Below, piece by piece: positions 36,900 to 49,920 of a DNA stretch of 64,000 nucleotides. Location: contig NZ_JACBZS010000001.1 of assembly GCF_013408305.1 (NCBI RefSeq), forward strand, positions 744,001 through 808,000, in the 5' to 3' direction. Positions within the stretch are counted from its first letter, which is position 1. The number at the start of each line of letters is the position of its first letter. The position numbers were made by a program, and so were the translations under genes. Source of the stretch: Naumannella cuiyingiana. GTDB lineage: Bacteria > Actinomycetota > Actinomycetes > Propionibacteriales > Propionibacteriaceae. Under the pieces are notes generated by a model that worked only from the letters and a program-made list of their open reading frames with translations, had not been told where the DNA came from and did not search any database.

Positions 36900-37181
36900 G
36901 TGCAATCCCCCGCACCAACCGACTGGGAGTCCTATGCCCGCGAACTGGGGCTCGAGCTGCAACGCCGCCGCTCCGTCGCGGGGCTGAGCCAGGAGAAGCT
37001 GGCCAGCCGGGCCGGCATGACGCGTACCCACTATCAGCAGCTCGAACGCGGCGCGTGGAAGCCGGGCCAGCCGGCCAACCCGTCGCTGCGAGTGCTGGTC
37101 GGGCTGGCCCAAGCGCTCGGGGTCGAGGTCGGCGACCTGTTGCCCAGCGTCAGCCGCGTCGATCTGAGCTGGTTCGAGTAG
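36900..37181 (+). CDS. XRE family helix-turn-helix regulator
   Basis: 93 residues. An HTH_3 domain fills the protein: LGLELQRRRSVAGLSQEKLASRAGMTRTHYQQLERGAWKPGQPANPSLRVLVGLAQALGVEVGDLLP. The start is GTG 36900 without a good SD. The region upstream (36847-36870) is unusually AT-rich for this genome and contains CCAAATATTTCTGG, a possible autoregulatory site. It is a solitary small regulator upstream of the CRISPR-Cas locus; a functional link to it is not supported. Confidence 0.85.
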   Translation: MQSPAPTDWESYARELGLELQRRRSVAGLSQEKLASRAGMTRTHYQQLERGAWKPGQPANPSLRVLVGLAQALGVEVGDLLPSVSRVDLSWFE

Positions 37182-37249
37182 CGGCGGCCCCAACGCGAAC
37201 GGCCGGCGCCCGATGGGGTGCCGGCCGGTCTGCTGCGATCTGCGATCGG

Positions 37250-37322
<73 letters not shown>

Positions 37323-37429
37323 GCGGTGCAGAACTCTAGCAGCGCGGGCGCGGAGTTGAGAAATCGAGCGAGGTCTTGTCGGGCGATTCGCCTCCTGCCA
37401 GACTCACGTCACCGCGCCGGGGAGAGAAC

Positions 37430-39760
37430 GTGATAGACGACGTGCCTGTTCGGGCAGTTGCCCAGTGTCCACTTGTTGCGCACACGCCGCGCGTCGACGA
37501 CCCTGCGCAAGGTTGGCACACCTTACGCGAGCATCTGATCACCGTCGGAGACCTCGCCGGCAAGTTCGGCTCCGCCTTCGACGGCGAGTCCATCTGCAGA
37601 TTCGTGGGTTTGATCCATGACGCAGGCAAGGCCACCGCTGACGTGCAGGCGGCGTTTCGGCAGTGCCTCCGCACGGGTGCCGCACGGCTCGGCACGCCGC
37701 ACAAGCTCGAGGGCGCAGCCCTGGCATACCTGCTGGTCGAAGCGGGCAACCCGCTTGCGGGACGGGTTGCGTGCCTGGCCGCCTACGGGCACCACAACCA
37801 GATCCCTGCGTGGGATCCGAGCAGCGGATGGCCCCTCTCGGTGGTGTTCGACGCGATGCGGAAGGATCCGGGGAGGCTCAACGAGTTGATCGGCTTGCTC
37901 GACGGCGAGTTGGGGTTGTCGTTGCGCGACGTCGCCGCCAACGTGCGACTGCCAGCTCGGGTGAGCACCGGGCGCGCCACGGATGTCGAGCTGTTTGCAC
38001 GCATGTGCCACTCGGCGTTGTGCGATGCCGACTATCTGGACACGGCTCGACACTTTGCCGGGGCTCAGGCGCCACGCGAGCACGCGCGCCGCGGGATGAT
38101 CCGACTGCGAGACGCATTCGTGGCGTCCTATGCAGCTCGATTCGGTGATGCGTCGGACACGCGGATCAACGCGGTACGCGCCGAGCTGTACGAGAAGTGC
38201 CGCACCATCGGCGCGGCCTCCCCGCTGCCCCATGGGGTCTACCGCCTCCCAGCGCAGACAGGAAGTGGGAAGACAATGGCAGCGGCGGCGTTCGCGCTGG
38301 AACACGCCGTCAGCACCAGCAAGCGCCGCGTGATCGTCGCGGTTCCCTACACATCCATCACCACCCAGAATGCAGCGGCCTACCGGGATCGTTTCGACGA
38401 GCTCGGCCGTGACGTCGTGCTCGAACACCACTCGAACATCGTCGAGGCTGGGGGCCCATCCGCGGCCAGCGGCAGCGACGACAACGACGAGGATGCAGTC
38501 CGCGAGGTGGCATGGCGCAAGCTCAGTGCGGAGAACTGGGACGCCGAGTTCATCGTGACTACGACAGTCCAACTATTCGACTCACTGCTCGACAACCGGC
38601 CATCGCGGACCAGGCGCCTGCATCGAATCGCCGACTCGGTGATCGTGCTGGACGAGGTCCAGTCGATCCCACTTGAGCTGGTACCGACCGTGCTGGGGAT
38701 CCTGCGGGAACTTGTCGAAGGGTATGGCGTCACGGTCCTGCTCGCCTCCGCAACACAGCCCGCCTTCTGGGCCCTAGACATGTGGAAGGACCTCGAGGTC
38801 ACGGACATCGCCGACCCTGCCGACGTCCCCGAGCCGACCCAGCGGGCCCGGTTCTTGATCAACTCGCCACAGTCGTGGGACTCGGTCGCGGCAGACATCG
38901 CGAGTCATGATCGGGCCTTGGCCATCGTCAACACCACACGCGACGCGCAATCCCTGCACGCGATGATCGAAGACAGCACCGACACCCCCACCCTCCACCT
39001 GTCGACGCGCATGTGCGGACAGCATCGGCTGGACGTCCTTGCCGAGGTGGGGCGCGCAATCAGTGCTGGAGAGCATTTGATCCTGGTCTCCACCCAGATC
39101 ATCGAAGCCGGCGTCGACCTCGACTTTCCGGTCGTCTTCCGTGCATTCGCACCCGCGGAGTCGTTGATCCAGAGCGCAGGGCGCTGCAATCGCGAGGGTC
39201 GCCTCGGCGCACGCGGTGGCACGGTGCATGTCGTCTCGCCCATCGACGGCGGCCTGCCGCCCGGCAGTTATGCGACCGCGACCACCAAGACTCGCTACCT
39301 GATGGAGGATTTCCCGGAGCTCGGAGGGTTCGGCGAGGAATTCGATCTGAGCAACCCCGAGTTCCTGACCGAGTACTACCTCGACCTCTACCACTCACTC
39401 CTCCCTGGCGGCGACAGTGCCCGGTCGCAGCGGATCCAGGAATCGCGCGGGAAGCACGACTTCCCACAGACCGCGCACGAGTTCTCCATGATCGACAGCG
39501 ACACGATCGGCGTGGTTGTCGATGCCTACGGCGACACCGCTGAGTTGCTGCGCCTCCTCGACGCGGCCGACGAGCACCCCGAGTTGCTCCGATCGCCTAC
39601 CAACCGGCGGTTGGTCAACCGGTTCACGGTGCAGGTACGCCCGCACCACACCATCGGACAAATCGTCGAACGACGGAGCGGCGTCCAGCAGTGGGTGGGC
39701 GACTACCACCCCGCCCGCGGGGTCACCTTCGACGCCGCGAGCGAAGCGAGCATCTGGTGA
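37430..39760 (+). CDS. cas3: CRISPR-associated helicase/nuclease Cas3, type I-C
   Basis: 776 residues. The N-terminal HD nuclease shows GLIHDAGKATADVQ (the HD dyad), GHH (AYGHHNQIP) and CHSALCDADYLDT. The SF2 helicase has Walker A QTGSGKTMAAAAFALEHA, the DEAH-box equivalent VLDEVQSIP, motif III ASATQPAF and motif VI QSAGRCNREGR. Cas3 is recruited by Cascade to an R-loop and degrades the target. The start is GTG 37430 with SD GGGGAG; an upstream TTG is less likely. All catalytic motifs are present, so the protein looks active. A gap of 196 bp separates it from the cas5 operon. Confidence 0.95.
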   Translation: MIDDVPVRAVAQCPLVAHTPRVDDPAQGWHTLREHLITVGDLAGKFGSAFDGESICRFVGLIHDAGKATADVQAAFRQCLRTGAARLGTPHKLEGAALAYLLVEAGNPLAGRVACLAAYGHHNQIPAWDPSSGWPLSVVFDAMRKDPGRLNELIGLLDGELGLSLRDVAANVRLPARVSTGRATDVELFARMCHSALCDADYLDTARHFAGAQAPREHARRGMIRLRDAFVASYAARFGDASDTRINAVRAELYEKCRTIGAASPLPHGVYRLPAQTGSGKTMAAAAFALEHAVSTSKRRVIVAVPYTSITTQNAAAYRDRFDELGRDVVLEHHSNIVEAGGPSAASGSDDNDEDAVREVAWRKLSAENWDAEFIVTTTVQLFDSLLDNRPSRTRRLHRIADSVIVLDEVQSIPLELVPTVLGILRELVEGYGVTVLLASATQPAFWALDMWKDLEVTDIADPADVPEPTQRARFLINSPQSWDSVAADIASHDRALAIVNTTRDAQSLHAMIEDSTDTPTLHLSTRMCGQHRLDVLAEVGRAISAGEHLILVSTQIIEAGVDLDFPVVFRAFAPAESLIQSAGRCNREGRLGARGGTVHVVSPIDGGLPPGSYATATTKTRYLMEDFPELGGFGEEFDLSNPEFLTEYYLDLYHSLLPGGDSARSQRIQESRGKHDFPQTAHEFSMIDSDTIGVVVDAYGDTAELLRLLDAADEHPELLRSPTNRRLVNRFTVQVRPHHTIGQIVERRSGVQQWVGDYHPARGVTFDAASEASIW

Positions 39761-39766
39761 GCCGCG

Positions 39767-39864
39767 TACGCTGGGCCGCTGCGCCCGATCGGGCGGGATT
39801 CTCAACATGCTGCCTTGAAGTGACGAACTTCAGGGGCTCCGCCGGCACACACCTGCGGAGCCCC
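39767..39864 (+). ncRNA. crRNA-like RNA: pseudo-repeat, pseudo-spacer and terminator hairpin (candidate cas-regulating RNA)
   Basis: A single CRISPR-like unit sits between cas3 and cas5. Its 11-nt end GGATTCTCAAC (39796-39806) is identical to the 3' handle of every regular array repeat. It is preceded by CGCCCGATCGGGCG (39782-39795), a hairpin in place of the array stem. The array stem has CTCCC/GGGAG where this one has CGCCC/GGGCG, so one T-A pair became a G-C pair. A pseudo-spacer of about 26 nt follows (39807-39832), then the hairpin 39833-39864. TACGCT (39767-39772) is placed like the -10 boxes of this genome and predicts an RNA start near 39779. I infer a short RNA processed by Cas5c and loaded into Cascade. 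Confidence 0.7.
39833..39864 (+). terminator. terminator-like hairpin ending the crRNA-like RNA
   Basis: GGGGCTCCGC (39833-39842) pairs perfectly with GCGGAGCCCC (39855-39864) around a 12-nt loop. No U-tract follows, as is common for GC-rich actinobacterial terminators. It would separate the crRNA-like RNA (and cas3 transcription) from the cas5 promoter. Confidence 0.65.
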
Positions 39865-39883
39865 TCGCTGATCATTACCGCCC

Positions 39884-39954
39884 TTGACAACGCCATCTGC
39901 GGCTGCCATCGTCAATCCAGACAGGGCGACGTGCTTCACTTCAAGGAGCATGAA
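39884..39954 (+). promoter_or_regulatory. cas5c promoter and candidate target of the crRNA-like RNA
   Basis: TTGACA (39884-39889) and CATCGT (39907-39912) at 17-bp spacing form a plausible promoter; the start point would be near 39919. The SD AAGGAG is at 39943-39948. On the minus strand, starting at 39951, the sequence ATGCTCCTTGAAGTGA repeats the pseudo-spacer with one nucleotide fewer. It is immediately preceded by TTC (complement of 39952-39954), the usual type I-C PAM. In RNA the SD would also lie in the loop of ACUUCA/UGAAGU (39938-39956). Cascade binding would therefore block the promoter-proximal region of cas5-cas8-cas7. Confidence 0.65.
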
Positions 39955-39956
39955 GT

Positions 39957-40631
39957 ATGTTCTACGACTGGATGACTATACGGCCTCCGCGATCGTTCAC
40001 ACACTCCGCGCTGGCCCTCCAGGTCGACGGGGAGGCCGCGGTCTTCACGCGACCGGAGTTCTCCTCTGAGCGAGTCTCGTATCCGGTGATCACTCCGACG
40101 GCCGCGGAGGGGCTCTTCCGCAGCGTGTTCTGGAAGCCGGAGATCAAGTGGGTGATCGACAAGGTTGAGGTCCTGAACCCGGTGAAGTGGGGAACACTGC
40201 GACGCAACGAGAGCGAGACGGCGATCACCCGCGAGATGATCACTCGCGGCCATCTCGACGTGAACACGGTCACCCAGCAGCGGATGACGACGATGCTCAA
40301 GGACGTCTCCTATCGCATCCACGCCCATGTCTGGGTGCACCCCGACGCCAGGGAGCAGAACCCGGCCAAGTGGCGCGACCAGTTCCACCGCCGGATGCGA
40401 CGTGGGCAAACGTTCAGCACACCGTTCTTGGGATGTCGCGAGTTCCACGCAGATGTCTACGAGCCCGACGCGACATCGCCAATCGACTGGACGGAGGACC
40501 TCGGGATCATGCTGCACTCGATCACCACCGAATCCCGCACGCGCAAGGAGACCTACTCCTGGTTTCCCGCGTCCGTGGAGTCCGGCGTGATGACGGTTCC
40601 GCGACACGGCATCCAACTCGGCGGGGCATGA
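39957..40631 (+). CDS. cas5c: type I-C Cas5 (Cas5c/Cas5d), crRNA endonuclease
   Basis: 224 residues. In type I-C, Cas5 replaces Cas6: it cuts the repeat at the stem base and stays on the 5' handle. The family parts SERVSYPVITPTAAEGLFRSVFWKPEIKW and QQRMTTMLKDVSYRIHAHV are clear, and REFHADV and WFPASVESGVMTVP continue it. The start ATG has a good SD (AAGGAG) 8 nt upstream; that SD is the target of the pseudo-spacer match. Its stop overlaps the cas8c ATG (ATGA). Confidence 0.93.
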   Translation: MFYDWMTIRPPRSFTHSALALQVDGEAAVFTRPEFSSERVSYPVITPTAAEGLFRSVFWKPEIKWVIDKVEVLNPVKWGTLRRNESETAITREMITRGHLDVNTVTQQRMTTMLKDVSYRIHAHVWVHPDAREQNPAKWRDQFHRRMRRGQTFSTPFLGCREFHADVYEPDATSPIDWTEDLGIMLHSITTESRTRKETYSWFPASVESGVMTVPRHGIQLGGA

Positions 40632-42505
40632 TGTTGCTTCAGGCGTTGACCGCGGCGGCCGGCGAACGTGCGCCGATCGGGTATGCCAAGAAGCCCATTG
40701 GCTTCCTCCTGCAGGTCAATCCCAGACACCCTGCGGCGCAGTTGACGTCACTGTACGAACAGAATCCCGCGGGAGATGGCAAGCGTCCGGTCGCGCCAAG
40801 TCGGTGGGTGCCCAACCTGACGCGGGCAAACAACCCTCCGCCCCTGTTTGCCTGCGACAACGCCGCCTTTGTGCTCGGACTGCCGAAGGTCGCGAAAGAG
40901 CCTGCCGCGCAGCCAAAGGAGGACGCGACGGCGCGGGCGAAGAACGAGGCTTTCGTCGAGCTGCTCGGTGAGTACTGCGCTGCCACGTCAGACCGCGACG
41001 CGGATCAGATCATCGCGTGGTACCGCGAAGGGAAGCCGGGATTGGACACCGCCATCGCAGCCTTGCCCGAGTCTCTGCGAAAGCGCCTCAACGTCGATCT
41101 GATCGCGGTAGCCGTCCAACGACGTCCGCCGCTGTACGCCAAACCGGAGGGGCAGGCCTTCTGGGAATCCCGGGTCATGGGCAGTGAGGACGCCGCAACG
41201 GGCGTCTGCCTCGTCTGCGGAAGGACCAGGCCGCTGGTCAGCACTCTTCCTCAGTCGATCGCCGGCGGACTGGTGCCGGCCACGAAGACCGCGAACGTCG
41301 CCCTGCTCAGCGGAAACTTTCCGGCAGCCCAGCGCGGGGCTACCGGCAAGGGGCTCCGGTCCGCGCCGATCTGCGCGGAATGCGGCCTGGCCGTCATCGA
41401 TGCGTTCAATCGCCTCGCCGGATCTGATGATCATCGGTGGGGCCGCCCTGACGAGGATCGGGCAACGATCTGGTGGCTCCGCGGTGGAGATCGCGGCGAT
41501 GAGGAGCTCACCCAGCAACTCGAGGAGCCGGAGCCGCAATGGGTGCAGCAATTCCTCAGCACGCTCGACAAGCCGTCAAGCCTTACCGGTAGGGACATCC
41601 GTGCGGACCGGTTCTATGCGCTGACATTCTCCGGAAACGTCGCACGCCTGGTGATACGGGGTTGGATCGATCTCCCGCTGATCGAGATGCGCGCGAACGT
41701 CGCCGCGTGGTTCCGTGACGTCGCGGTCGAGTACGGCGATCAGTCGCCGTACTCATCCCTCGGTGCCGTGGCGAGCAGCCTTGGCACCATGGTGCGTCGC
41801 GACGGACGCTGGACGGCGCCCGCCCCTGAGGGCGCTCGCGAAGCCTTGCTGCGCGTGGCCGTTGCCGGCGCCCGCGTACCCACCAACTATCTCCTCACCG
41901 CAATCGGCCGTGCCAAAGCCGAGGTGACGCATCTGACCAGTGCCGACCGCTTGACCGTGCACATCGCGCGGCGCCGAATGCACGCCCGCGTCGGACTCTT
42001 CAAGCTCATCCTCAACCGCACTTACCTCCAGGAGGACCAGTTGTCGACCGAACTCGACCCCGACCGTAAGGACAAGTCGTACCTGAGTGGACGACTGTTC
42101 GCTGTCCGCGAGGCGCTGCAACGACGCGCGGTCCGAGGCGTGACCTCCACCATCACCAATCGCTACTTCGAGCGCGCGGTCTCCAACCCCGCGACCACCG
42201 AAAAGACCTTGGCAACCCTCGCGCACCAGCACCTCGCCGCGTTGCGCCGCACAGAGTCCGGCCGTGGAGCGGCCGTCTCCATCGGGCGCCTCCTCACCGA
42301 GCTTGAGTCGACCATGGGCGATGCACCGTCGCGGCAGACCGCCGAGCAGGAGGCCGCCTGGATCTGCGGCTACTTCCAGCAACGCCAGCACGACTTCGCC
42401 AAAGCGGCCGAGTACCGAGCTGCGAAGCTCGCCGGGCAGTCTCCGCCCGACCACGATCCGAACTCAACGGCCGACGCTGCCAATCCGGAAGGAACAGACG
42501 AATGA
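40628..42505 (+). CDS. cas8c: type I-C large subunit Cas8c (Csd1)
   Basis: 625 residues. The opening MMLLQALTAAAGERAPIGYAKKPIGFLLQV is typical of Csd1. A four-cysteine zinc site is visible: CLVCGRTRP and CAECGLAVIDAFNRL. The middle HRWGRPDEDRATIWWL and the C-terminal LFKLILNRTYLQ-KSYLSGRLFAVREALQ continue the family. Cas8c recognises the PAM and recruits Cas3. An internal SD and in-frame TTG at 42030-42043 probably start a separate small subunit. It is linked to cas5 and cas7 by ATGA overlaps. Confidence 0.93.
   Translation: MMLLQALTAAAGERAPIGYAKKPIGFLLQVNPRHPAAQLTSLYEQNPAGDGKRPVAPSRWVPNLTRANNPPPLFACDNAAFVLGLPKVAKEPAAQPKEDATARAKNEAFVELLGEYCAATSDRDADQIIAWYREGKPGLDTAIAALPESLRKRLNVDLIAVAVQRRPPLYAKPEGQAFWESRVMGSEDAATGVCLVCGRTRPLVSTLPQSIAGGLVPATKTANVALLSGNFPAAQRGATGKGLRSAPICAECGLAVIDAFNRLAGSDDHRWGRPDEDRATIWWLRGGDRGDEELTQQLEEPEPQWVQQFLSTLDKPSSLTGRDIRADRFYALTFSGNVARLVIRGWIDLPLIEMRANVAAWFRDVAVEYGDQSPYSSLGAVASSLGTMVRRDGRWTAPAPEGAREALLRVAVAGARVPTNYLLTAIGRAKAEVTHLTSADRLTVHIARRRMHARVGLFKLILNRTYLQEDQLSTELDPDRKDKSYLSGRLFAVREALQRRAVRGVTSTITNRYFERAVSNPATTEKTLATLAHQHLAALRRTESGRGAAVSIGRLLTELESTMGDAPSRQTAEQEAAWICGYFQQRQHDFAKAAEYRAAKLAGQSPPDHDPNSTADAANPEGTDE
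42041..42505 (+). CDS. cas11c: internal-start small subunit Cas11c, nested in cas8c
   Basis: Within cas8c, AGGAGG (42030-42035) lies 5 nt before TTG 42041, which is in the cas8c frame. Translation from it gives a 154-residue helical protein starting at STELDPDRKDKSYLSGRLFA and ending with cas8c. Independent translation of Cas11 from the 3' part of cas8 is established for type I-C systems, and this is the position expected. Cas11c forms the belly filament of Cascade. The start is inferred from SD quality and position. Confidence 0.7.
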   Translation: MSTELDPDRKDKSYLSGRLFAVREALQRRAVRGVTSTITNRYFERAVSNPATTEKTLATLAHQHLAALRRTESGRGAAVSIGRLLTELESTMGDAPSRQTAEQEAAWICGYFQQRQHDFAKAAEYRAAKLAGQSPPDHDPNSTADAANPEGTDE

Positions 42506-43374
42506 GCACCCACACCAACCCCGCGGTCAAACACGATGCGTTGTTCGTGTTCGAAGCCACGGACTCGAATCCGAACGGCGACCCCGACAATGGCGGGCGG
42601 CCGCGTGTCGATCTGGACACCGGTCAGGGCGTCGTCTCGGATGTCAGCCTCAAGCGCAAGGTGCGCGACTCCGTGCTCTATCGCATCGAGCACGGGCTCG
42701 CCTCGGAGCGCAACGGAATCTTCATCCGTCGCGGATTGTCCCTCAACGAGCAGTTGGAAAAGGCGTACCAAGCGCTTGACCAGAAGCCGGCGGACAAGCC
42801 GAATGCTGAGCATGTCGCCAAGGGCGAGCAGTACATGCGGGAGAACTTCTACGACGTTCGGATGTTCGGTGCCGTGATGTCGACAGGCAAGGCGCAGGCG
42901 GGCAAGGTCACCGGCCCTGTGACGATCGGCATCGCGCGCTCAGTCGATCCGGTGATGCCCATGGAGATGGGGATCACCAGGACCGCCTCCACACGCGAGG
43001 AAGCCAAGGACAACGCGTCCCAGATGGGCAACAAGTCGGTCGTTCCGTACGGCTTGTACGTCACGCGGGTGCACTATCAGCCGACAAAGGGCAACGCAGT
43101 GTCCGCCGATGATCTTCAACTCCTCTGGGACTCACTGGCGACGATGTTCGAGAACACCCGGAGCGCTGCACGCCCGGACGTCGCTGCGCGCCAACTCCTG
43201 ATCTTCAGCCATGACAATCCACTCGGCAACGCGCCAGCCCGCGTCTTGTTCGACACCGTCGCGATCACCAGGACGTCCGAGCGGCCGACCCCGCAGTCGT
43301 ACGCCGATTACAAGATCGAGCTCCCTGCGACAGGCGAGCTGCCCTCGGGCGTGACTTTCACCAGTGTGATCTGA
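42502..43374 (+). CDS. cas7c: type I-C backbone subunit Cas7c (Csd2)
   Basis: 290 residues. DALFVFEATDSNPNGDPDNGGRPRVDLDTGQGVVSDVSLKRKVRDSV is the Csd2 signature. NFYDVRMFGAVMSTGKAQAGKVTGPVTIGIARSVDPV and SQMGNKSVVPYGLYVTRVHYQP are also characteristic. Cas7 polymerises along the crRNA and contacts each 6-nt segment. The start overlaps cas8c by ATGA, so Cas5, Cas8/Cas11 and Cas7 are produced from one transcript. Confidence 0.95.
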   Translation: MSTHTNPAVKHDALFVFEATDSNPNGDPDNGGRPRVDLDTGQGVVSDVSLKRKVRDSVLYRIEHGLASERNGIFIRRGLSLNEQLEKAYQALDQKPADKPNAEHVAKGEQYMRENFYDVRMFGAVMSTGKAQAGKVTGPVTIGIARSVDPVMPMEMGITRTASTREEAKDNASQMGNKSVVPYGLYVTRVHYQPTKGNAVSADDLQLLWDSLATMFENTRSAARPDVAARQLLIFSHDNPLGNAPARVLFDTVAITRTSERPTPQSYADYKIELPATGELPSGVTFTSVI

Positions 43375-43391
43375 TACCCGACTGATGACTC

Positions 43392-43967
43392 ATGCAGATC
43401 CCGGACGATTGGCTCCGTCTCTCGCTGTTGCAGCACTACGCCTACTGCCCAACGCAGGCATCGCTCATCCTCGACGGCACCTGGCTGGACAATCACCTCA
43501 CCGTCGAGGGCGACACAGCACACGAGCGGGTGGACCAACCTGGATTTGATCAGCGTCGCGGCGTGCGCGTGCATCATCGGGTGCAGTTGCACTCGGATGC
43601 GCTTCGGATCCACGGCATTGCAGATGCCATCGAAGAGGATGTGGACGGAAGGTTGATGCCAGTCGAACACAAGCGGGGACGAGGCGCCGGAGATCTGTGG
43701 CCCACAACGGTCCAGGTGGTTGCCCAAGCGCTGTGTTTGGCGGAGATGATCGGACAACCTGTTCCCGAGGCCGCGATCTTCGTGGTCCGCGAGAGACGGC
43801 GGGAGTACGTCGACGTTGCGACACATTCCGGCCGGGTGATCGAACTCGTCACTGAGGCGCGCCGGCGGCTTCGCGTTGGAGCTATCCCCGGGGTGTACGA
43901 GCGGCTGAGGTGCAAGTCGTGCAGCCTGCAGAACTCCTGCCAGCCCCGCGGGGTTCAGTGGCGATGA
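43392..43967 (+). CDS. cas4: Cas4, Fe-S nuclease for spacer acquisition
   Basis: 191 residues. One N-terminal Cys (YCPTQ, Cys 19) and three at the C-terminus (CKSCSLQNSC) ligate the iron-sulfur cluster. RecB-like nuclease residues appear in THERVDQ, HGIADAIEED, PVEHKRG and QALCLAEM. Cas4 trims prespacers and sets PAM orientation for Cas1-Cas2. It starts 17 bp after cas7 and overlaps cas1 (ATGA). Confidence 0.94.
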   Translation: MQIPDDWLRLSLLQHYAYCPTQASLILDGTWLDNHLTVEGDTAHERVDQPGFDQRRGVRVHHRVQLHSDALRIHGIADAIEEDVDGRLMPVEHKRGRGAGDLWPTTVQVVAQALCLAEMIGQPVPEAAIFVVRERRREYVDVATHSGRVIELVTEARRRLRVGAIPGVYERLRCKSCSLQNSCQPRGVQWR

Positions 43968-44980
43968 GCACGTACCTGTTGCGTACGCTCGTCGTACAAA
44001 CGCCTGGTACCCGGCTCGTCCTCGAGGGCGACGCGGTCAAGGCGCTGATGCCGAATGGCGAAGCGCGGCGGCTGCCTCTGACCGCCATCGATGCCATCGT
44101 CGTGCTGTCGGGCATCGATGTGTCGACCCCTCTACTCACCCGATGCGCGACGGACGGGCGAGGGCTCACCTTTCTGAGCAAGTTCGGGAAGGCCCGAGCA
44201 TCCGTCCTCGGCCCGCAAGACGGGCGAGGGCTCCTCCGCGAGTCGCAATACCGCCGACACTTTGACCCCGAGGCCCGATCGGCGCTGGCCGGCGTCATCG
44301 TCGCGGGGAAGATCCATCAGATGGCGTGGGGGCTTCGTCAGTGGGCACGCGACGCCCCGGCTACAGCAGCCGCTGAGCTTCGTCATCACGCTACGGGCAT
44401 CGAAAGCATGGTGCCTCCCTCGGGATCCGAGCATCGGGAACAGCTGTTGGGCATCGAAGGCGCCGCGACGCACCGGTACTTCTCCGCAATGCGCGCTGTC
44501 CTGAGCGAGACGACGTTCAACACCCGTACTCGCCGTCCGCCACGAGATCCAGTAAACGCGACCCTGTCGTTCCTGTACGGCATGATCACCATTGCGACTC
44601 AAGGAGCCATCCTGGCTGCCGGTTTGGATCCATTCTGCGGGTACCTACATGGAGACCGCAGCGATCAGCCATCACTCGTCCTGGATCTCGCCGAAGAGTT
44701 TCGTCCAGGCGCAGACCGCTTCGCCGTCAGCTTGTTCAATCGTCGGCAGTTGAGACGAAAACATTTCACCGACGAGCTCGGCGGCGCCGTTGCGCTCAAC
44801 GACGCGGGTCGCCAGATCGTTCTCGACGCTTGGCACCGACATCGACAAGCAGACGTCAAGATCAGGAGGGCCGCGGAGCCCCTTCCGCGCGCGGCGCTTC
44901 CGATCGTCCAAGCCAACGCACTCGCGAAGGCGTTACGCGAGAACGGCCAGTATTCGCCTCATCAGCTCGTGGTGACGTAG
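43964..44980 (+). CDS. cas1: Cas1 integrase, type I-C
   Basis: 338 residues. The N-terminal beta domain is NTYLLRT-like (MSTYLLRTLVVQTPGTRLVLEGDAVKA). The catalytic metal ligands can be placed: Glu in LLGIEGAATHRYFSAM, His in GYLHGDRSDQPSLV and Asp in LVLDLAEEFRPG. With Cas2 it inserts new spacers at the leader end. ATG 43964 overlaps the cas4 stop; a longer upstream frame is a shadow inside cas4. cas2 follows with no gap. Confidence 0.95.
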   Translation: MSTYLLRTLVVQTPGTRLVLEGDAVKALMPNGEARRLPLTAIDAIVVLSGIDVSTPLLTRCATDGRGLTFLSKFGKARASVLGPQDGRGLLRESQYRRHFDPEARSALAGVIVAGKIHQMAWGLRQWARDAPATAAAELRHHATGIESMVPPSGSEHREQLLGIEGAATHRYFSAMRAVLSETTFNTRTRRPPRDPVNATLSFLYGMITIATQGAILAAGLDPFCGYLHGDRSDQPSLVLDLAEEFRPGADRFAVSLFNRRQLRRKHFTDELGGAVALNDAGRQIVLDAWHRHRQADVKIRRAAEPLPRAALPIVQANALAKALRENGQYSPHQLVVT

Positions 44981-45271
44981 ATGAACTACTTGGTGGCATA
45001 CGACGTGAACACGACGACACCAGAAGGAGAGAAACGACTCCGCCGCGTGGCTCGAATCTGCGAAGGCTTTGGTCAGCGCGTGCAGTACTCGGTCTTCGAA
45101 GTTACGTGCTCGCCGACCCTGTTCGCACAGTTGCTCGCGAAACTCCAAGACACAGTCGATCCTGAACTGGACAGCCTGCGCATCTACCCAATCCGCTCTG
45201 ACTTCAAGCGCGACGTGGTGAGGATGGGGCGATGCCGCGAGTTGCCGACCGACCGCTCGTGGACCATCTAG
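44981..45271 (+). CDS. cas2: Cas2
   Basis: 96 residues, ferredoxin-like fold. MNYLVAYDVNTTTPEGEKRLRRVARICEGFGQRVQYSVFEVTCS contains the conserved Asp at the end of strand 1 and the usual QYSVFE motif. RIYPIRSDFKRDVVRMG ends the domain. It bridges the Cas1 dimers in the integrase. It begins immediately after the cas1 stop codon and is the last cas gene before the leader and array. Confidence 0.95.
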   Translation: MNYLVAYDVNTTTPEGEKRLRRVARICEGFGQRVQYSVFEVTCSPTLFAQLLAKLQDTVDPELDSLRIYPIRSDFKRDVVRMGRCRELPTDRSWTI

Positions 45272-45409
45272 ACTTGGTCACGCTGGGGAAGGATCGGCGA
45301 TGTCGTCAGCCCCGGCGCCACCCCACACGTCGACGGACGAACCTGAAGAGAAGCTTGGCGCAATCCCTGTGGTTCCCCAGCCTCTTAGTGATGTGGCTTG
45401 TCACGGGGG
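45272..45409 (+). promoter_or_regulatory. CRISPR leader
   Basis: 138 bp separate cas2 from the first perfect repeat. No convincing gene lies here. The orientation follows from repeat quality: repeats next to this side are identical while those at the far end carry indels and substitutions. New spacers should therefore enter here and the array promoter should lie here; I cannot pick a -10/-35 pair with confidence. Confidence 0.7.
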
Positions 45410-47711
45410 GTGCTCCCGGGCCCCGCGCTCGGGAGGGATTCTCAACGGCGGCGGGATCGCCGCGGTCGGCGGGAAGTTGTTCGTGCTCCCGGGCCCCGCG
45501 CTCGGGAGGGATTCTCAACATGCGGCACTGCGACTACTGGTGGCTTGTCTACGTGCTCCCGGGCCCCGCGCTCGGGAGGGATTCTCAACATCGCTGACAA
45601 CTGGATCGCACTCGTCGCGCCTCAGGTGCTCCCGGGCCCCGCGCTCGGGAGGGATTCTCAACTTAATACGGTTGATTGCGGCTGGAATAGCTTTAGACGT
45701 GCTCCCGGGCCCCGCGCTCGGGAGGGATTCTCAACACCATCCCCCAGGACCAGTGGGACCCCGTTTCCGGCGGTGCTCCCGGGCCCCGCGCTCGGGAGGG
45801 ATTCTCAACGGTCCCGGCAGTCTCCCCAAGGGCCTATAGCTCAGGTGCTCCCGGGCCCCGCGCTCGGGAGGGATTCTCAACACCATCCCCCAGGACCAGT
45901 GGGACCCCGTTTCCGGCGGTGCTCCCGGGCCCCGCGCTCGGGAGGGATTCTCAACGGTGGACCAGTTCACCGCGATTTCAAGGGCCGCAAGACGTGCTCC
46001 CGGGCCCCGCGCTCGGGAGGGATTCTCAACGGAGGCATCGCCCGCGGAGAGGGTCGGCGATGCCTGTGCTCCCGGGCCCCGCGCTCGGGAGGGATTCTCA
46101 ACGAGTCCCGGCAGTCTCCCCAAGGGCCTATAGCTCAGGTGCTCCCGGGCCCCGCGCTCGGGAGGGATTCTCAACATCGCTGAGGCGTAGGCGCCGCTGG
46201 TAGGGCGCGATCGTGCTCCCGGGCCCCGCGCTCGGGAGGGATTCTCAACTTGCCAGGGCAGCGGTTGTGCGCGTGCTGGCGCGGGGGTGCTCCCGGGCCC
46301 CGCGCTCGGGAGGGATTCTCAACTTCGGACGCAGTAGAATCAGCCCAACCCTCAGACCGTGCTCCCGGGCCCCGCGCTCGGGAGGGATTCTCAACATCCC
46401 CGTGCAGTCGGTCGGCACCGTGGATGCCGAGGGTGCTCCCGGGCCCCGCGCTCGGGAGGGATTCTCAACTGAACGCGCGGATTGCCGCCCCGTTGTGTCG
46501 AGTCAGGTGCTCCCGGGCCCCGCGCTCGGGAGGGATTCTCAACTCACCGAAGCGAAGCATCGAGAAAGGAAACTGAGGCGTGCTCCCGGGCCCCGCGCTC
46601 GGGAGGGATTCTCAACTCGATGCGCGTGATGGAACCGAGTCCGGGAAGGTCGCGTGCTCCCGGGCCCCGCGCTCGGGAGGGATTCTCAACACCGCATGGG
46701 TCTCCCCGTCGGTGTCGGCCACGGTCGTGCTCCCGGGCCCCGCGCTCGGGAGGGATTCTCAACCGATGTGACTAATGTCGAGGTGATCTTCGACCCGTGT
46801 GCTCCCGGGCCCCGCGCTCGGGAGGGATTCTCAACGCGAACCAGCAGAAGATCGCGGCCGCGCAGGTTGAGGTGCTCCCGGGCCCCGCGCTCGGGAGGGA
46901 TTCTCAACGAGGACGGGATGCGCAAGTACGGCGACGACCTCTACAGTGCTCCCGGGCCCCGCGCTCGGGAGGGATTCTCAACACCGTGACGGCCGCCCGC
47001 ACCACGGGGGCGGCGATGTGCTCCCGGGCCCCGCGCTCGGGAGGGATTCTCAACACGCCCCGCCGGCGCCTCGGCGTCGCCATCCAGTCCGACGTGCTCC
47101 CGGGCCCCGCGCTCGGGAGGGATTCTAACGGCCAGCCTTTCCGCGGCCTGACCGATGCTGATAGCGGTGCTCCCGGGCCCCGCGCTCGGGAGGGATTCTC
47201 AACGCGGCAAAGGCTCCCGGCCCCCGAGGGGCATACGTGCTCCCGGGCCCCGCGCTCGGGAGGGATTCTCAACGCGGCAAAGGCTCCCGGCCCCCGAGGG
47301 GCATACGTGCTCCCGGGCCCCGCGCTCGGGAGGGATTCTCAACATCGCGAGCACGTCTGACACATCGCGGCGGTGCTGGGTGCTCCCGGGCCCCGCGCTC
47401 GGGAGGGATTCTCAACTGGTTGCCGGAGGCGGCGCTGGACCGGCTGGACGCGCGGTGCTCCCGGGCCCCGCGCTCGGGAGGGATCTCAACAGGCACCATG
47501 GTCGAGGCTGCACTGATCGAGCGGTTCGTGCTCCCGGGCCCCGCGCTCGGGAGGATTCTCAACATCGACCAGATCATCAACGGCGAACTCGGCCAGCGCG
47601 GTGCTCCCGGGCCCCGCGCTCGGGGAGGGATTCTCAACGTGTTCTTCGCCCCCGACGTGTGGGCCGGCTTCCTCGTGCTCCCGGACCCCGCGTTCGCGAG
47701 GGATTCACCAC
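45410..47711 (+). CRISPR. CRISPR array, 32 repeats and 31 spacers
   Basis: The repeat is 37 bp, beginning GTGCTCCCGGGCCCCGCGCT and ending CGGGAGGGATTCTCAAC. It folds as CTCCCGGGC / GCTCGGGAG with a CCCGC loop, and the 11-nt GGATTCTCAAC is the expected 5' handle. Spacers are 33-39 bp. Repeats 1-23 and 25-28 are identical. Repeats 24, 29 and 30 lack one base, 31 has one extra, and 32 (47675-47711) is degenerate. Spacers 5 and 7 are identical, 25 and 26 are identical, and 6 and 10 share 34 bases. The repeats are longer than usual for type I-C and do not end in ATTGAAAC. Confidence 0.98.
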
Positions 47712-47763
47712 GCCGGAAGTCCTAGCGCTCCAATCAGCAAGCAATGCCGTCGGCCAGCGCCGA

Positions 47764-48360
47764 TCACCCGTCGAGCCTCCCGGTCAGGTAGCGCTGGATG
47801 GCCGGCGAGACGGCGGCGACCACGGTCTCGACGGGTACGCCGGCCAGCGGCCCGACGCGCAGCACGTGGCGGGCCAGGGCCACACCGATCAGCTGCGACC
47901 CGGCGAGGGCGGCCCGCAGCTCGGGATGATCGTCGCGAATCCGGCCGACCAGGCGCCCGAGAACCACCCGCTCGACAAACTCGCGGAGCAACGCCCCGGC
48001 AGCCTCGTTGGTGGCGGCCGACCGCAGCAGCGCCACGGCCGCCGGCCCGCTGGCCGGGTCCTCCCAGATCGACAGATAGAACCGCGTCACGGCCTCCCCC
48101 AGCCGTGCCTTCGGGACATCGACCGCATCGTCCAGCCCGGCCGGGTCGACCGGCAGCTCCAACGCCGCCGCGAACAGCCCGTCCTTGCCGCCGAAGTAGT
48201 GCACCAGCAGCGCCGCATCCACCCCTGCGGCGCGGGCGACGCCGCGCAGCGACGTCCGCTCGTAGCCGCGCTCGGCGAACAGCTCGCGCGCGCGCTCGAT
48301 GATCAGTGCCCGGGTGCCGGGGCTGCCGGGCCGCCGCCCGCGGGCCGTGGTGCCACTCAC
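47764..48360 (-). CDS. TetR family transcriptional regulator
   Basis: 198 residues. The helix-turn-helix is ALIIERARELFAERGYERTSLRGVARAAGVDAALLVHYFGGKDGLFAAAL, as in TetR. The remaining residues form the ligand and dimerisation domain, with no family-specific motif. GTG 48360 was chosen because TATGCT lies 6 nt before it; an upstream TTG gives a longer but less likely form. It is divergent from the flavin monooxygenase, which it probably represses. Confidence 0.9.
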   Translation of the reverse strand: MSGTTARGRRPGSPGTRALIIERARELFAERGYERTSLRGVARAAGVDAALLVHYFGGKDGLFAAALELPVDPAGLDDAVDVPKARLGEAVTRFYLSIWEDPASGPAAVALLRSAATNEAAGALLREFVERVVLGRLVGRIRDDHPELRAALAGSQLIGVALARHVLRVGPLAGVPVETVVAAVSPAIQRYLTGRLDG

Positions 48361-48382
48361 GCGCCCAGCATAATTCCTCAAC

Positions 48383-48414
48383 TGTTGATTTCAACACTCG
48401 TTGAGTTCTATGGT
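48383..48414. promoter_or_regulatory. nested palindromes between tetR and monooxygenase
   Basis: TGTTGA-TT-TCAACA (48383-48396) is a perfect palindrome, and CTCAAC (48378-48383) with GTTGAG (48400-48405) forms a wider imperfect dyad around it. TATGGT (48409-48414) is the -10 box of the monooxygenase gene, 6 nt before its ATG. This is a likely TetR operator. Confidence 0.65.
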
Positions 48415-48420
48415 CGATCC

Positions 48421-49920
48421 ATGACGACCCGCGACACCGAGGTGATCATCGCCGGGGCCGGCCCGACCGGGCTGATGCTGGCCAACTGGCTGCAGCGCCT
48501 CGGCGTACCCCACCTGCTGCTCGACCCCAAGACCGGCCCGACCCGCGAATCCCGCGCGCTCGCGCTGCAGGCACGCAGCCTGGAGATCTATGACCAGCTC
48601 GGCATGATCGACGCGGTACGCGATGCCGCCGCACCGGCATTCCGGGTCTCCCCCGGCTGGCGCGACCGGCCGGCGCCGAGCGCCGTGCCCCTCGCCCGCC
48701 TCGGCGCCGGCCTCACCCCCTACCCCGGCCTCGCCGAGCTGGAACAGTCGGAGAACGAGCGGCTCCTCGTCGAACACCTCGAGCGCGCCGGCGGCACCGT
48801 CGGCTGGGGCCACGAGATCACCGAGCACCGCGAGACCCCGGACGGCGTGCGCGTCCGGTTCAGCACCCCGGACGGGCCGGGTGAGGCGACCGGGCGCTGG
48901 CTGGTCGGCGCCGACGGGGCGTCCTCGCCGACCCGGGAGCGGGCCGGCATCGCGTTCACCGGCACCACCCAACCGGGCAGCTTCTGGGTCGCCGATGCCC
49001 GCGACGTGACCGGCCTGCCCGCCGACGCGGTCAGCCTGCGGTTCGCCGAGCACGGCTTCCTGATCACCTTCCCCATGCGCGGGCGCGATCACCATCGCCT
49101 GATCGGGATGGACCGCGCCGACGAGCCGTCCGAGACCACCGTCCGCCGCGATGTCGCCGAGCGATTCGGCGTCACCTGGGGCGAGTCCGCCTGGTTCGCC
49201 CACTACCGGGTCCATCACCGCGTCGCCGACGCCTTCCGCGCCGGCCGAGTCCTGCTTGCCGGCGACGCCGCGCACGTACATTCACCGGTCGGCGGACAGG
49301 GCATGAACACCGGCCTGCAGGACGCCCACAACCTCGCCTACAAACTCGCCGCGGTCGCCGCCGGCGCGGCCGGCGAGAAGGCGCTCGATCGCTACCAGGC
49401 TGAGCGCCGCCCGGTCGCCCGCCGCCTGGTCGGCGGCGTCGACCGGGTCTTCGATGCGGTCGTCGACCCCTCCCCGGCCATGGTGGCGGCGCGACGAATC
49501 CTGGTGCCGCTGTGGGCGCCGCTGCTGGGCGGCGTGCTGCCCCGGCTGCCGATCGCCCGACGACTGGTCGGCTACCTCGGGCAGTTCCGCATCCACTACT
49601 GGATGACCGACGCGGCCCGCGCCACCGGGCGACGGCATCCGGTGGTCGGGCGCCGGCTGCCATGGACGGGCCAGAACTTCGACGTGCTGCGGGACGCGAG
49701 CTGGCAGGTGCACGCCTACGGTGCGACCGCACCCACCCTTGCCGGCCTACCGGCAGTGATCAGGGCCGCCCACCGCTTCGGCGAGCGGCGCGATCTCCAC
49801 CTCGACCCCGCGCTGCTCCATCTGGTACGCCCGGACGGCTTCGTCGCCGCGACGGCCGCGCCGGCCGATGCGCCGGCCGAGTTCGCCCGGGTGCTCGCCG
49901 AGCAGGGCTATCGCGGATGA
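48421..49920 (+). CDS. FAD-dependent aromatic-ring monooxygenase (PHBH family)
   Basis: 499 residues. GAGPTGLMLANWLQRLGVPHLLLD is the FAD-binding GxGxxG motif, VGADGASSPTRERAGI the DG motif binding FAD and NADPH, and VLLAGDAAHVHSPVGGQGMNTGLQDAHNLAYKLA the GD motif. A thioredoxin-like C-terminal domain is suggested by the last 120 residues. The family hydroxylates phenols and antibiotics; rifampicin or phenolic substrates are typical. Control by the divergent TetR suggests induction by a small aromatic molecule. Confidence 0.9.
   Translation: MTTRDTEVIIAGAGPTGLMLANWLQRLGVPHLLLDPKTGPTRESRALALQARSLEIYDQLGMIDAVRDAAAPAFRVSPGWRDRPAPSAVPLARLGAGLTPYPGLAELEQSENERLLVEHLERAGGTVGWGHEITEHRETPDGVRVRFSTPDGPGEATGRWLVGADGASSPTRERAGIAFTGTTQPGSFWVADARDVTGLPADAVSLRFAEHGFLITFPMRGRDHHRLIGMDRADEPSETTVRRDVAERFGVTWGESAWFAHYRVHHRVADAFRAGRVLLAGDAAHVHSPVGGQGMNTGLQDAHNLAYKLAAVAAGAAGEKALDRYQAERRPVARRLVGGVDRVFDAVVDPSPAMVAARRILVPLWAPLLGGVLPRLPIARRLVGYLGQFRIHYWMTDAARATGRRHPVVGRRLPWTGQNFDVLRDASWQVHAYGATAPTLAGLPAVIRAAHRFGERRDLHLDPALLHLVRPDGFVAATAAPADAPAEFARVLAEQGYRG

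Follow-up and report, generated by a model that had tools for sequence, protein, structure and literature searches.

What does a single crRNA-like unit do in the gap between cas3 and cas5c of a type I-C CRISPR locus? We addressed this question in the chromosome of Naumannella cuiyingiana, in a 64,000-nt stretch of DNA that we refer to as the window. The genes cas3, cas5c, cas8c, cas7, cas4, cas1, and cas2, each recognized by NCBIfam models, make up a complete type I-C locus in the window and are followed by the array (Table 1). A tRNA-Lys gene stands directly before cas3 (37248–37322, minus strand); because it adjoins cas3 and the cas5 match is absent from the one other genome of the genus that was searched, the locus may be an island at a tRNA. 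Within the array region (45410–47744), we noted duplicated spacers (45699 with 45845; 47167 with 47237, 100% copies) and repeats that degenerate toward the end (47094, about 47450, and 47675).

Table 1 Features of the type I-C locus around the crRNA-like unit, in window positions
Feature	Position	Strand	Remark
cas3	37376–39760	+	ORF as listed; TIGR01587 (Cas3 core) and TIGR01596 (Cas3'' HD), both above cut-off
−10-like TACGCT of the guide-RNA gene	39767–39772	+	by eye
Repeat-like hairpin CGCCC-GATC-GGGCG	39782–39795	+	
crRNA-type 5′ handle GGATTCTCAAC	39796–39806	+	identical to array
Guide (pseudo-spacer), 26 nt up to end hairpin	39807–39832	+	first 17 nt = match to cas5 leader
Terminator-like hairpin without T run	39833–39864	+	0 of 100 shuffles as good
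Possible cas5 promoter: TTGACA (39884–39889), 17 nt, CATCGT (39907–39912)	39884–39912	+	by eye; absent from consensus scan
Protospacer-like target, minus strand = ATGCTCCTTGAAGTGA	39936–39951	−	16 paired positions, guide base 6 unpaired
PAM TTC of the target	39952–39954	−	
Shine-Dalgarno-like AAGGAG of cas5, within the target	39943–39948	+	by eye
cas5c, first gene past the target	39957–40631	+	TIGR01876 above cut-off
Type I-C array, 37-nt repeat (handle donor)	45410–47638	+	degenerate repeats toward end; further near-repeat at 47675

The sequence-only reading had described the unit as an array-identical handle behind a covarying stem, with a −10 box upstream, a short pseudo-spacer, and a terminal 10-bp hairpin serving as its terminator. 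The handle, the stem, and the pseudo-spacer were all found as described. The handle agrees with that of the array in 11 of 11 nt, and together with its preceding G (GGGATTCTCAAC) it occurs 29 times in the genome, once in the unit and 28 times inside the array; with at most one mismatch, it has 30 matches in the window, against a shuffle mean of 0.12. The stem of the unit (CGCCC at 39782–39786, GGGCG at 39791–39795) differs from the CTCCC/GGGAG of the array on both sides, a compensatory change, and comprises five pairs around a loop of four, while the array stem has nine pairs. What the unit and the array repeat have in common is confined to the last 12 nt and the outer stem; the 5′ part of the repeat is missing from the unit. 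In fold predictions, the repeat stem had pair probabilities of 0.98 when the first 60 nt were folded alone; with all 94 nt of the RNA they were 0.40 to 0.50, since a competing structure is then favored by 0.6 kcal/mol.

The −10 box and the terminator held up in part. TACGCT is present upstream but is weak, has no good −35 by eye, and lies in a region (39650–40000) where the promoter scan found none. The end hairpin (39833–39842 with 39855–39864) is indeed a perfect 10 bp, or 14 bp with one mismatch, starts 25 to 26 nt after the handle, and beats 100 of 100 shuffles, but it has no T run and is not listed by the terminator scan. An Rfam scan of 37000–49000 gave no CRISPR-like or regulatory match at the unit.

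The guide, which reads ATGCTGCCTTGAAGTGA from 39807, matches the cas5 leader. On the minus strand before cas5, TTC is followed by 16 consecutive bases that are all matched by the guide, with guide base 6 left partnerless, and the matching stops after guide position 17. TTC is given as the PAM of another type I-C system in PMC8406640. The target covers the AAGGAG ahead of the cas5 ATG, and a possible cas5 promoter, recognized by eye, lies just upstream. When base 6 was allowed to stay unpaired, the match scored 20.5, equaled by 0 of 3000 shuffles; among 25 distinct array spacers, the highest score was 13.0. A second test, which covered a wider region and accepted an indel at any point, had 0 of 400 shuffles as good. 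The ungapped guide match in the window was nonsignificant (84 of 2000 shuffles as good). There was no other ungapped target across the whole window, and a whole-genome ungapped search with TTCATGCTNCCTTGNAGTG at up to three mismatches returned only the guide itself and one three-mismatch site on contig C2, which is not a convincing target. Because the bulge at base 6 was allowed after the match had been seen, comparison with other genomes matters.

We collected 70 cas5 loci, which are partly redundant (L024 and L044 seem to share one contig, as do L025 and L043). Used alone as a query, the cas5 of the window gave six pattern matches and no relative; alignment A1 as a query gave 22 loci, and a family search around G736 and G415 added no further locus. 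The end of cas3 could be placed in 46 of the 70 loci, 29 with a cas3–cas5 gap of at most 67 nt and 17 with a gap of at least 196 nt; our rule did not place it in the remaining 24. A survey of such gaps had been proposed as a check on the unit: a handle-bearing unit was present in 14 of the 17 long gaps, but not in those of L036, L090, and L093. Two loci with an unplaced cas3 end (L055 and L072) also bear units, and two short-gap loci (L028 and L058) carry the unit upstream of cas3 instead. With L046 left out as nearly identical to L047, there were 17 nonduplicate units from four phyla: Actinomycetota (Gordonia, Streptomyces), Chloroflexota (Dehalococcoidia), a Nitrospirae metagenome-assembled genome (MAG), and a Paenibacillaceae. 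A target-free scan of the 70 cas5-upstream regions matched in eight, six of them handle-bearing units, compared with 1 of 237 control windows; the matches in L074 and L079 are probably due to chance.

Ten plasmid I-C loci (from Nitratidesulfovibrio, Brevibacillus, Zymomonas, Parabacteroides, Thermus, Deinococcus, Azospirillum, Treponema, Allomeiothermus, and Leptolinea) gave no unit with a target by the patterns used. The matches on the Thermus plasmid were its array rather than a unit, and those on the Parabacteroides and Leptolinea plasmids look like chance. A match upstream of cas3 in L090 was likewise rejected as array; the shuffle test there had picked another array spacer (1142 of 2000).

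We scored every guide against its own neighborhood and, as a control, against the neighborhoods of the 16 other units. Own pairs reached a score of at least 18 in 14 of the 17 units (13 without the bulge option), whereas none of the 272 cross-genome pairs did, their maximum being 16.0. In shuffle tests of 16 units, L046 included, 0 of 2000 shuffles were as good in nine and 1 to 5 of 2000 in four, with 84 for the window, 132 for L035, and 209 for L091; the tests of L028 and L058 gave 0 and 2 of 2000. The scans that first picked out L028, L058, and L072 had a target among their conditions, so these three units do not count independently in favor of targets; with them set aside, 11 of 14 units score at least 18 with the bulge option. 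L035 and L091 have no convincing target, L049 is weaker (own-pair score of 16.5), and the target of L055 overlaps its own unit and is to be read with care. The unit, its target and PAM, and the matching of guide to target in other genomes are features that can be read in the DNA letters themselves.

The pairing is not uniform along the guide. Our count covers the 14 units whose target needs no gap, which leaves out the window, L035, and L091. Guide positions 1 to 5 were matched in 14, 14, 12, 14, and 14 units, positions 7 to 11 in 13, 13, 13, 12, and 13, and positions 13 to 17 in 8, 9, 10, 11, and 7. At position 6, one of the 14 units had a match, and at position 12 none had; matches at these two positions had carried no penalty in the choice of targets. 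This is one match in 28, below the 7 expected by chance at 25% (binomial probability about 0.003, calculated by hand), as if pairing were avoided at these positions. In Class 1 complexes, every sixth guide base is flipped out, according to a passage of PMC11127173. The mismatches follow the flip-out geometry of a type I crRNA, as expected for a guide held by Cascade and unlike simple RNA pairing or antisense.

The units vary in layout. A strong hairpin, equaled by at most 1 of 100 shuffles, stands 24 to 44 nt after the handle in 10 of the 17 units (the window, L042, L040, L048, L049, L061, L072, L091, L028, and L058); it is farther from the handle in L034 (77 nt) and L037 (67 nt), and in L035, L038, L041, L047, and L055 the best hairpin was equaled by 7 to 45 of 100 shuffles. 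The layout of the window recurs in a Gordonia MAG (L042), with the hairpin 25 nt after the handle and a minus-strand target just before cas5, and with guide and target letters unrelated to those of the window. In L072 and L034, the unit is on the opposite strand and the target lies in the cas5 leader or promoter region. In L037, L038, L040, and L041, the target precedes the handle by 116 to 121 nt and is on the same strand, which probably places it at the promoter of the unit itself. The Paenibacillaceae locus (L058) is a textbook case placed upstream of cas3, with the unit, a T-tailed terminator, a sequence resembling a promoter, and a target that directly precedes the start of cas3.

Three Streptomyces loci showed a different neighbor. 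In L047 (on the minus strand, before the target) and in L048 and L049 (between unit and cas5), the target adjoins the start of a small hydrophobic ORF, for example MLLSITHPDSAPVTIAVVIVIVLLVRSGLFRLRFRLG in L049. This suggests membrane peptides that are repressed through CRISPR in the manner of CreTA/CrePA; the arrangement resembles the guarding of a peptide more than the control of cas genes. On a Streptomyces californicus plasmid (L091), an IS5 transposase gene interrupts cas8c, and the unit lacks a convincing target; it is possible that regulation was lost here after loss of the effector.

Standalone repeats and mini-arrays with spacers that partly match cas promoters have reportedly been surveyed in type I and V-A loci (Shmakov et al. 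2023, NAR). The sequence-only reading knew of no such element for this I-C system. CreR (Liu et al. 2023, Cell Host Microbe) is listed for I-B, I-E, and V-A in the portion of a review cited here (PMC13131331), and among the literature matches listed we recognized none as describing CreR in type I-C, but the Liu and Shmakov surveys lay outside that search and may cover I-C. The unit resembles CreR, as portrayed in parts of PMC13131331 and in section 3.2 of PMC12737573, in being a crRNA-like RNA at a cas locus whose PAM-side guide is partly complementary to a cas leader or promoter, with no toxin gene seen. Its repeat-derived handle matches its own array, its guide pairs with its own cas control region on the PAM side over 16 positions if one guide base is left unpaired, and its match, ending after position 17, would be too short for interference, to judge from I-B results in part of PMC10989794. 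It differs from CreR as described there in its type (I-C), its single repeat, the hairpin as its 3′ end, and the one-base bulge at guide position 6. The CreA of Haloarcula hispanica CreTA is also built from one repeat-like sequence, a guide, and a terminator, and partly matches a promoter beside TTC; unlike the window unit, it represses a toxin RNA gene, belongs to type I-B, and has a T-rich terminator (from passages of PMC8501985 and PMC10989794). These comparisons suggest that the unit adds a further member, from type I-C, to the known CreR kind, and that the window copy is unusual in its one-base bulge.

We conclude that the unit is probably a CreR, that is, a crRNA-like RNA by which Cascade represses the cas5 operon. 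A likeness to CreA/CreR-type RNAs had been put forward from the layout of the unit, and it gained support from the PAM-flanked target in the cas5 leader and from other I-C loci in which different guides match their own neighborhoods. CreR, which controls cas genes, fits the window better than CreA, which represses a toxin, because the target lies at cas5 and no small hydrophobic ORF (judged by a hydrophobic stretch) was found in the cas3–cas5 gap. In the mechanism we infer, the unit would be transcribed into a short crRNA-like RNA, which the type I-C Cascade would carry after trimming, with the handle and small stem replacing the array repeat. Trimming would be the work of Cas5c, which in type I-C cuts at the stem so that the handle stays on the RNA (PMC11127173 and PMC10651486), and the 3′ end would be set by the hairpin, which stands where a second repeat would be. 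The 26-nt guide would then bring Cascade to the target beside TTC, where leader and ribosome-binding site of cas5 would be covered, with tolerance of the missing base at position 6, and transcription of cas5-cas8c-cas7-cas4-cas1-cas2 would be blocked. With pairing that ends after about 17 positions, binding by Cascade would not lead Cas3 to destroy the chromosome. An 11-bp seed match is enough for CreA, and in an I-B system 24-nt spacers repress without interference or priming while 28 to 30 nt still prime (both from parts of PMC10989794); by analogy, binding without cleavage is plausible in I-C for the window guide of 26 nt with about 17 paired. Repression would lift when array crRNAs are abundant or when an anti-CRISPR removes Cascade, as in the CreR model of PMC12737573 (section 3.2, the part cited here).

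We were concerned that the bulge, found in the window alone among the 17 units, could instead mark a formerly working CreR with a later one-base insertion or deletion in its target or guide, so that autorepression is now weak or gone. Decay does occur, as L091 with its split cas8c and lack of a good target illustrates. Yet the window keeps the 11 paired positions past the bulge, the handle, the stem, and the end hairpin intact, and the absent base corresponds to a position that is mismatched in 13 of the 14 other units; we regard decay as somewhat unlikely, though the most serious of the alternatives. A plain antisense RNA, in which the guide would pair with the cas5 mRNA leader and cover the Shine-Dalgarno sequence with no part for Cascade, would explain why the matched stretch includes AAGGAG, and 16 pairs with one bulge are better tolerated by ordinary RNA–RNA pairing than perhaps by Cascade. 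However, an array-identical handle and a repeat-like stem would be pointless in such an RNA, positions 6 and 12 are mismatched in 27 of 28 cases in other units, and TTC or TTT precedes the targets of those units (this was a condition of the search). Moreover, the same-strand targets of L037, L038, L040, and L041, about 120 nt upstream, leave their guides antisense to nothing downstream. We rejected the antisense explanation for the window as improbable.

Two further origins were considered: the unit might serve as antitoxin RNA in an addiction module resembling CreTA/CrePA, or it might be an RNA anti-CRISPR (Racr) that came with a mobile element. The Streptomyces targets just before a small hydrophobic ORF rather than cas5 (L047, L048, and L049) lend the first some color, and Racrs likewise are solitary repeat units with I-C examples, as the portion of PMC10651486 cited here indicates. 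In the window, however, the target abuts cas5 and the gap showed no small ORF with a hydrophobic stretch, a criterion that would pass over toxins of other kinds, and Racrs are described in that source as decoys of phages and plasmids that need no guide–target match, whereas the window unit has such a match and sits between chromosomal cas genes. That cas locus itself adjoins a tRNA gene. We judged these origins very unlikely and rejected a toxin–antitoxin role for the window. A functionless orphan or decayed CRISPR repeat would account for the limited resemblance to the array repeat but is hardly credible and was rejected, given that the compensated stem, the end hairpin, and the PAM-flanked match recur in the same combination elsewhere with different letters.

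Returning to CreR as our preferred reading, we tentatively propose, with more doubt than conviction, that I-C Cascade uses guide positions 1 to 5 and 7 to 11 to recognize natural regulatory sites. The window would be the extreme case, with DNA that has no base opposite the flipped-out guide base 6, a one-base deletion being tolerated precisely where the complex does not read; the result would be an autorepressor that is weak by design and readily relieved. Guides of this kind may have arisen independently in the I-C loci of several phyla, directed in some cases at cas genes and in others, in Streptomyces, at small membrane peptides.

The same arrangement occurs in other bacteria with different yet matching guide and target, and in the window it probably serves to restrain expression of the immune system. 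RNA-guided self-control of CRISPR systems would thereby extend to type I-C, where Cas5c trims its own guides. The 14 natural guide–target pairs make the unread positions visible as mismatches at 6 and 12, and the bulged pair of the window raises the testable question of whether Cascade can bind where the target has no base opposite a flipped-out one. Should guides of this kind prove common, the level of I-C immunity in these bacteria would be set by the number of array crRNAs competing for Cascade, and anti-CRISPRs would trigger the production of more Cas protein.
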